From positions 26,468 through 90,467 of the forward strand of contig NZ_JADGFC010000002.1 in NCBI RefSeq assembly GCF_016744025.1: a stretch of 64,000 bases of DNA, written 5' to 3'. Below the pieces are notes generated by a model that was not told the DNA's origin, ran no database searches, and worked only from the letters and a program-made list of their open reading frames with translations. Numbering within the stretch: position 1 is the first letter of the stretch; each line of letters opens with the position of its first letter. Below are positions 57,154-59,398 of the stretch, one piece after another. Position numbers and translations under genes: made by a program. This DNA comes from Sulfurimonas sp. (GTDB lineage: Bacteria > Campylobacterota > Campylobacteria > Campylobacterales > Sulfurimonadaceae).

Positions 57154-57741
57154 TTATAAACTTTTTAAAATCTTCTTTGCTAAACTCAATGCTTTAGCAC
57201 GATGAGAAAGTTTTTTCTTTGTTTCATCATCCAACTCACCAAGTGTTTTGTCATATCCAAGTGGAATAAACATCGGGTCATAACCAAAACCAAAATCACC
57301 AACAGCCTTATCAAGTGCCGTTCCATGCATCCAACCATGAACACATTGCTCACCTTTTTTCGTAATGATTGCAATTGCCGCTGTATAGTGTGCAGGTGAA
57401 GATTCTACCCCTTTAGCTTTTATATCTTCTATAAGTTTATAAAGATTGTCTTTGTCATTAGCATCTGGACCTGCATGTCTAGCACTATAAATACCTGGTT
57501 TTCCCTCAAGTATATCAACACTTATACCGCTATCATCTGCTAAAACTATTACATCTTTATCATCCAAAGCTTTAAACACGGCTCTTGCTTTTATCAGGGC
57601 ATTCTCTTTAAAAGTACCTCCGTCTTCAATTATTTCAAATTCTTCTATAAGTTCACTATATGGAATCACTTCATACTCTTCGCAAAGAGCCTTGATCTCT
57701 CTCACTTTACCTTTATTAGATGTAGCTAAAACTAATTTCAA
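57154..57741 (-). CDS. rdgB: dITP/XTP pyrophosphatase
   Basis: [53 protein letters not shown]. Confidence 0.96.
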
Positions 57742-57805
57742 ATTTCATTCCTTATAGTGTATGTAATAATGTTTTATATATAATCACGAAATTATACTCA
57801 AATAA

Positions 57806-58073
57806 AAGTAGTAAGACATACTAAATTATAATGTCAATGAGAAAATAAGCTATAAGCTGCAAGGCAAAATCTAGCAGTTGTACGTATTGTGCTTCAAGAG
57901 ATTTTAACGAAGCAGACTATAGCTTATCTTCTCACCCTACGGGCAACATTTAAAAGACTCATCTTCTGCGTTGAATTTTAGTTAACGATACTAGTATCGC
58001 CAACTAAAGTTCGCCTTGAATCTAAACCTTTTAAATGTTGTTGACTTTATTATATTAGTATATCTTACTACTT
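57806..58073. mobile_element. candidate MITE-like nested palindromic element
   Basis: Terminal inverted repeats AAGTAGTAAGA[C/T]ATACTAA, hairpin A 57838-57934, central CCCTACGGG 57935-57943, hairpin B 57944-58040. Confidence 0.6.
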
Positions 58074-58084
58074 AAAGGCAATAC

Positions 58085-59398
58085 ATGTTTAAAAAAATTT
58101 TTCCTCTCTCAGCAATTATCTCTCTAAGATTTTTAGGTCTATTTTTAGTTTTACCTGTTATCTCTATCTATGCTGCATCTATGACAGACAACCTTCTTTT
58201 AGTTGGTATCATCGTTGGTGGTTATGCTCTAACTCAAGCTATATTTCAAGTTCCTTTTGGAATAATGAGTGATAAAATTGGAAGAAAACCAACTCTTTTA
58301 GTCGGTCTTCTTATTTTCTTAACAGGTTCACTTATCGCTGCTTTTGCTACAGATATATATACTCTTATGCTTGGACGTTTTCTTCAAGGGGCTGGTGCTA
58401 TTGGTTCTGTTATTACTGCAATGATTTCAGACCTTGTTGAAGAAGAAGTCAGAGGTAAAGCAATGGCAATTATGGGCGGAACTATCGCTCTTAGTTTCGC
58501 TGTTGCGATGGGACTTGGACCTGTAATTGGAGCTTCTTATGGAGTTGACACACTTTTCTTTATTACGGCAGGATTATCTGTATTTGCTATAATTCTCCTC
58601 TTTACAAAAGTACCTACTCCACCAAGAATCAAACATATTTACCATAAAAAAGCTAAAACTGCTGATATTTTAAAAGACTCAAATCTTTTAAATATGATTG
58701 TTATTAATGCAATGCAAAAAGCTCTTATGACTATTGCTTTTGTTCTTATACCTATTATCCTGACAAGTGATGCTTTTTCTTGGGAAAAAGGCGATCTTTA
58801 TATGGCATATTTACCTGCAATGGTTCTTGGACTTATTGCTATGGGACCTGCCGCAGTTTTTGGTGAGAAGCACAACAAACCTAAGCAAATATTTTTAGTT
58901 TCTATTGTTCTTTTTATTGGCTCATTTTTGATTATGGGTTTAACTGATTCAAGTACTCTTTTCGTAGTTGGTGTTTCAATGTTCTTCATCGCATTTAACA
59001 TGATGGAGCCACTTGTTCAGTCTATGATTACTAAGTTTGCTAAAGTTCACCAAAAAGGTGCTGCTCTTGGTATCTCTAATTCTGTTGCATATTTTGCTAC
59101 GTTTATCGGGGGAACACTAGCAGGTCTAATGCTCGATATTAGTGATAGAGCAACGATTGGTATCTCTGTGGCTGTTCTAGCGACTGTATGGTTACTATGG
59201 ACTCTTAAACTACAAAATCCAACTAAACACTCGCATCTATTTATTGCTCAAGACCTAATAGATACAGATAAACTAAATAAACTTGAAAATGAACATATTG
59301 CTGAATGGTACGTAAACGAAACAGAAAAACTAGTAGTTGTTAAATATGTAGCAGATGCCATAGACAAAGAAGACTTAAAAGCTAAAATCTCTAAATAA
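58085..59398 (+). CDS. MFS transporter
   Basis: 12-TM pattern; GIMSDKIGRKPTLLVG, GRFLQGAGAIGSV. Confidence 0.92.
   Translation: MFKKIFPLSAIISLRFLGLFLVLPVISIYAASMTDNLLLVGIIVGGYALTQAIFQVPFGIMSDKIGRKPTLLVGLLIFLTGSLIAAFATDIYTLMLGRFLQGAGAIGSVITAMISDLVEEEVRGKAMAIMGGTIALSFAVAMGLGPVIGASYGVDTLFFITAGLSVFAIILLFTKVPTPPRIKHIYHKKAKTADILKDSNLLNMIVINAMQKALMTIAFVLIPIILTSDAFSWEKGDLYMAYLPAMVLGLIAMGPAAVFGEKHNKPKQIFLVSIVLFIGSFLIMGLTDSSTLFVVGVSMFFIAFNMMEPLVQSMITKFAKVHQKGAALGISNSVAYFATFIGGTLAGLMLDISDRATIGISVAVLATVWLLWTLKLQNPTKHSHLFIAQDLIDTDKLNKLENEHIAEWYVNETEKLVVVKYVADAIDKEDLKAKISK

Follow-up and report, generated by a model that had tools for sequence, protein, structure and literature searches.

The window analyzed here, a 64,000-nucleotide stretch of DNA from Sulfurimonas sp., carries a 268-bp MITE-like insertion at positions 57806-58073 (no strand assigned), between rdgB and an MFS gene. 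The first neighbor belongs to the RdgB/HAM1 family (TIGR00042, above cut-off), while the other encodes an MFS protein for which no NCBIfam cut-off was reached. No open reading frame of at least 80 amino acids overlaps the 268-bp element, which is thus short and without a transposase gene; the claim of the original prediction, an earlier reading of this locus, that no ORF explains the element therefore held.

The element is bounded by terminal inverted repeats, the left one, AAGTAGTAAGACATACTAAATTATAATG, on the plus strand (57806-57833) and the right one on the minus strand (58046-58073), and its terminal arms are complementary at 18 of 19 positions. The left repeat diverges from the family types described below, AAGTAAGAGACCATAAATAACTTCATAG and AAGTGCCTGACCATAATAAATGTCATA. 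A TA lies at the right end (58073-58074, no strand assigned) and an AA at the left end, so that the TA flank of this copy is imperfect. Inside the repeats are two hairpins. Hairpin A (57838-57934) has its sense on the plus strand, with an internal loop formed by CAAGGC on the 5' side (57860-57865, plus) and AACGAAG on the 3' side (57906-57912, plus). Hairpin B (57944-58040) has its sense on the minus strand, with CAAGGC on the 5' side of its internal loop (58013-58018, minus; GCCTTG on the plus strand) and AACGCAG on the 3' side (57966-57972, minus; CTGCGTT on the plus strand), and it contains CGATACTAGTATCG at 57986-57999. Between the two hairpins lies the centre, CCCTACGGG (57935-57943, no strand assigned; CCCNNNGGG in its family form), which makes a mini hairpin in the predicted fold.

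As RNA, either strand is predicted to fold much more stably than its shuffled versions: the plus strand reaches -92.4 kcal/mol (z -11.3) and the minus strand -104.6 kcal/mol (z -12.0), and none of 200 shuffles folded equally well. The features that the original prediction described (terminal arms, hairpins A and B, the centre and the 14-nt palindrome) all held, positions included, as did its claim that the hairpins share sequence blocks: CAAGGC/AACGNAG is common to both, in inverted orientation.

Copies, ends and insertion sites of the family

The full element is present once in its own genome, yet DNA-similarity matches to it occur in 52 of 135 Sulfurimonas genomes, at many loci and with no more than 9 per genome. 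When copies from different loci are aligned, the alignment runs from AAGT to ACTT and stops there, giving the element sharp ends, and its size is 266-269 bp in 72 of 84 copies. A TA is found on both sides (TA/AGT...ACT/TA) in 62 of 76 compared copies. Because this count does not exceed that expected from permuted flanks (59 of 76), target duplication is unproven for these class-1 ends, and by permutation their TA flanks are indistinguishable from target preference. No match to the window element was found in a plasmid collection by distant blastn.

The rdgB/MFS site itself is empty in G133, G009, G028, G055, G115 and G116, and remnants persist there in G105 (∼20 bp from the right end) and in G010 (both tips). 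These empty sites and remnants suggest that the insertion predated the splits of these relatives and was later deleted, an inference made without a dating tree. Shortened versions of ∼58-230 bp that keep both terminal repeats, suggesting internal deletions, were seen in G045, G097 and G344. At one locus (L009, G055:C284, at a contig end) the sequences flanking the element are mutually inverted copies all the way to the end of the contig, which is probably an artefact of the assembly folding back at the palindrome.

Insertion sequences with related ends were found for two classes of terminal repeat. In G127, 10 paired ends with AAGTGCCTAACCAAAATTAATG lie ∼1.06 kb apart, and the three of these pairs that were read carry transposase frames broken by homopolymer differences. 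The transposase is of the IS630 family by NF033545, above the NCBIfam cut-off, and also matches DDE_3. The end of this insertion sequence is identical to the MITE type AAGTGCCTGACCATAATAAATGTCATA at 24 of 27 positions; the match holds for this family type, the repeats of the window copy itself being divergent. The class-2 ends, ATACCAATCCCC, have an IS630 partner of their own, whose transposase is 30% identical to the first, and class-2 ends (ATACCAATCCC) are accompanied by a 3-bp TWA direct duplication in 8 of 8 examples read by eye. For ends AGGGCACC and TAACTGACC, no evident transposase was seen among the longest reading frames of the single ends followed up, and no partner was found for the remaining end types. 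A 1.58-kb candidate partner in G019 was rejected because it is a MITE into which an insertion sequence of the ISAs1 family has inserted; locus L318 (G019:C1:1479900-1481960) is a class-2 MITE with ATACCAATCCCC ends that is apparently interrupted in this way.

The element is thus very likely a MITE, as the original prediction had guessed in proposing a non-autonomous transposon: its terminal repeats act like transposon ends. MITEs of this kind are already known. A close comparison is RUP of Streptococcus pneumoniae, a MITE of IS630-Spn1 (PMC2229807, PMC3049150), which is likewise a non-autonomous, intergenic, dispersed IS630-like repeat; it has TA targets, as presumed for the element here. RUP differs in measuring 107 bp with 9-bp terminal repeats, compared with 268 bp and ∼28-bp repeats here, and neither paired internal hairpins with an invariant loop nor reuse of a core under unrelated ends is described for it in the relevant sections of those papers.

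A double-hairpin core under unrelated ends

Some weak matches of the first DNA search proved to be the same double hairpin in elements with other ends. In this core, CCCNNNGGG is flanked by two hairpins of ∼97 nt that point in opposite directions, and both have the internal loop CAAGGC/AACG(A/C)AG. Of 397 Campylobacterota genomes, 59 (from 21 of 68 genera) contain the core according to a covariance model built on the hairpin (R1), and a second model (R2) finds the core in 89 of 135 Sulfurimonas genomes, several of which have at least 30 candidates (at a scoring limit of 30). The elements that bear the core are mostly 263-275 bp long and carry many unrelated terminal repeats: TAAGTGCC, TAAGTCCTTA, ATACCAATCCC, AGGGCACCTCTAAAAACCC, TAACTGACCTTACGCA, TAGACTTCTTGC and others. 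The window's own genome has another copy of the core (L326, G000:C13), with different terminal repeats and ends AGGGCACCTCTAAAAACCC, and a lone single-hairpin match near a contig end (G000:C230:2918-3015).

In the listed inverted pairs the plus hairpin precedes the minus hairpin, so that whichever side a transcript enters from, the first hairpin it reaches is a sense one. At one locus (L220:1501-1704, G290) both hairpins lie on the same strand and are not inverted. The shared CAAGGC/AACGNAG loop and the fixed plus/minus arrangement also fit the suggestion of the original prediction that the core was formed by inverted duplication, in this case of an ancestral hairpin; we regard such an origin as possible.

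The core was not recognized as a known RNA: Rfam gave only sub-threshold matches to the window element at E≤5 and, in 40 loci that carry the core, no family that covers it. In viral contigs a degenerate motif gave 51 hits, which we take as chance because the covariance model accepts 0 of 51. Pattern hits in Verrucomicrobia (L069, L071, L080 and L081) were likewise rejected, since they share only a 23-base pattern and the model finds nothing there; these loci, in the Verrucomicrobiaceae MAG RYN_599, hold a separate dispersed repeat with CATTGACCCAGTGGGCAACATTTAAAAG.

Two known repeat types resemble the core in part. REP, BIME and REPIN elements are likewise inverted hairpin pairs, but REP units measure 20-40 bp (PMC3733652), whereas here each hairpin is ∼97 nt long, has the CAAGGC/AACGMAG loop and lies within IS630-type terminal repeats; the alternative in the original prediction of a REP/BIME-like unit is thus not supported. 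The CIR repeats of Caulobacter and Brucella (PMC2229807) resemble the core in that their RNA model has two long arms and a linker. They differ in having GANTC in the terminal loop and unclear mobility, compared with a constant internal loop CAAGGC/AACGMAG and IS630-like ends here. We found no earlier description of the element or its core in the open-access literature searched, which leaves many subscription papers outside it. Judged by that literature, a folded core that is conserved, independent of orientation and longer-lived than the transposon ends around it is likely to be new.

The core is also present in a ribosomal RNA gene. In G183 (Campylobacterales), a 268-bp version with CACTACCAGCTACC ends lies within the 16S rRNA gene at model position ∼205-213, and the insert and the surrounding 16S sequence are identical at all three loci found, L223 (around 1468-1735), L323 and L324. 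This location applies to these G183 loci only and not to the window copy. As an insert within an rRNA gene, the G183 copy is an intervening sequence, and it belongs to the same superfamily as the window element; that RNase III would excise it is supposed only by analogy. In Helicobacter, insertions in 16S rRNA bear the name intervening sequences (PMC3335488, PMC5729898), and RNase III is the enzyme that removes inserts from 23S rRNA (PMC8708148). The inserts described from 16S and 23S rRNA in Helicobacter and Campylobacter (PMC3335488, PMC5729898, PMC8708148) are, like the G183 copy, structured and have complementary ends; the 16S insert of H. fennelliae is at nt 175 and measures 355 bp, and that of H. 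canis measures 235 bp. No link between rRNA intervening sequences and a transposon family was found in the literature searched, and their likeness to the G183 insert is drawn without sequence comparison.

Compensatory changes and strand-specific wobble pairs

Across 117 matches, 29 of 29 pairs have changed on both sides, with 95.1% of cells paired, and the covariation score is 1.014, compared with 0.228 for shuffled and 0.14-0.22 for slid alignments. Between the variable arms, the loop CAAGGC/AACG(A/C)AG is nearly invariant. Since models R1 and R2 were seeded with hairpins picked by motif and fold, both the covariation and the loop invariance of this set are partly built in. The covariation, together with the empty sites, shows nonetheless that the outcome that would have refuted the original prediction, a locus with neither empty sites in relatives nor compensatory changes, was not met.

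Because of this seeding, the folding was tested again, by wobble pairs, on 79 copies that had been collected by DNA similarity only, without motif or fold, with the pairing taken from one copy. The test counts G-U against A-C in columns with a Watson-Crick consensus. Over all 79 copies, hairpin A shows a G-U:A-C ratio of 111:18 on the plus strand, and hairpin B shows the reverse, 25:137 on the plus strand and hence 137:25 on the minus strand; the terminal repeats give 41:39. The same pattern is obtained with one sequence per cluster (30 clusters): 54:9 for hairpin A on the plus strand (p = 6e-9), 49:9 for hairpin B on the minus strand (p = 9e-8) and 27:20 for the terminal repeats (p = 0.38). 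From this G-U excess on opposite strands, selection appears to act on each hairpin in its folded, single-stranded form, which is probably RNA. If selection acted on double-stranded DNA or a cruciform, or if the palindrome were kept by repair, the two strands should look alike. Strand-biased mutation would need a ∼6-fold bias that reverses between one half of the core and the other, and we judge it unlikely, without a test. Thus the core is likely selected as a folded single strand, and the simplest reading, also likely, is that this strand is RNA, although single-stranded DNA is not excluded and transcription is inferred. The suggestion of a structured RNA in the original prediction is supported to this extent: the two inner hairpins behave like folded RNA, without transcript data. 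It holds together with the transposon suggestion, the two not being mutually exclusive.

These results bear on the plainest alternative, that the element is an ordinary MITE whose inner palindromes are passive DNA without function, kept paired through template-switch repair of quasi-palindromes. Strong folding is frequent in MITEs, strand switching can homogenise internal palindromes, and the terminal repeats do behave symmetrically (41:39). However, strand-blind template-switch repair would not yield 54:9 and 49:9 on opposite strands, it would not preserve an unpaired internal loop almost unchanged while the arms around it stay well paired, and a plain MITE would not carry one core through unrelated terminal repeats. 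We therefore consider this explanation very unlikely.

A second alternative is that the hairpins do their work as DNA, either single-stranded or extruded as cruciforms; they might, for instance, be bound by replication or recombination proteins that aid the spread of the element, as in REPIN/RAYT or attC. In its favor, G-T wobble also beats A-C in DNA hairpins, and opposite hairpins on opposite strands resemble inverted REP pairs. Against it, the transposases identified as partners belong to the IS630 (DDE) family, whose substrate is double-stranded DNA, although no search was made for Y1 transposases or integrases; furthermore, an RNA can tolerate the core, as its location in 16S rRNA shows. 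We regard this alternative as unlikely.

The genomic context bears on a third alternative, that the MITE carries a bidirectional transcription terminator or attenuator. The symmetric layout would serve both directions, and the hairpins are strong. On the other hand, no terminator-like site was found in 57600-58300. All 37 copies with enough flank lie outside predicted genes, 20 between tandem, 15 between divergent and 2 between convergent genes. The TA sites in the window's intergenic regions (335 tandem, 131 divergent and 79 convergent) lead one to expect 5.4 convergent and 8.9 divergent copies (p = 0.04). The scarcity of convergent contexts is thus a mild argument against a terminator and does not favor a role at mRNA 3' ends. 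A terminator or attenuator is, in our judgment, very unlikely.

A two-layer reading of the element

Together, these observations are likely best read in two layers, transposon ends around a core selected as a folded strand, a reading that does not itself include RNase III. In the outer layer, the ∼28-bp terminal inverted repeats would be DNA sites, presumably cut and joined at TA targets, and an IS630-family transposase supplied in trans would mobilise the element; transposition by an IS630 insertion sequence is inferred from sequence alone. In the inner layer, the ∼97-nt hairpins form a pair in opposite orientation, each with the nearly invariant asymmetric loop CAAGGC/AACG(A/C)AG. Hairpin A would act in rightward transcripts and hairpin B in leftward ones, so that in either insertion orientation a read-through transcript would first make a correctly folded sense hairpin; transcription is likewise an inference.

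What the hairpin might do is suggested by analogy. We propose that it is a cis-acting RNA processing site for a protein that binds or cuts double-stranded RNA, such as RNase III, and that processing would remove the element from host transcripts by cutting, or insulate it from them, and thereby lower its cost. RNA processing is the role we consider most likely, as an inference made without transcript, protein or cleavage data; the protein involved and the benefit are inferred as well. RNase III is proposed because rRNA inserts are known and 23S inserts are excised by it; no cleavage is shown here, and we lean slightly against the specific claim that RNase III or a similar nuclease reads the hairpins. 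The Correia elements or NEMIS of Neisseria (PMC2229807, PMC2649163) offer a parallel, being MITEs with TA ends whose folded transcript is bound or cut by RNase III. The Correia/NEMIS stem is formed by the terminal repeats. Unlike in those elements, the signal here lies in two inner hairpins, and no strand-specific selection is seen in the terminal repeats.

A bolder reading, for which we see slightly more reason to doubt than to believe, is that the core represents a new class of mobile, orientation-independent RNA device that has moved through Campylobacterota by repeated end swaps, works in cis on whatever transcript it has landed in, and is the source of at least some of the phylum's rRNA intervening sequences.

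MITEs are usually seen as passive leftovers defined by their ends, whereas here the ends vary and the core persists. This gives a testable hypothesis for how a transposon may limit harm after landing in transcribed DNA, and a hypothesis for the origin of the intervening sequences in Helicobacter and Campylobacter rRNA, which have long been known but not explained.
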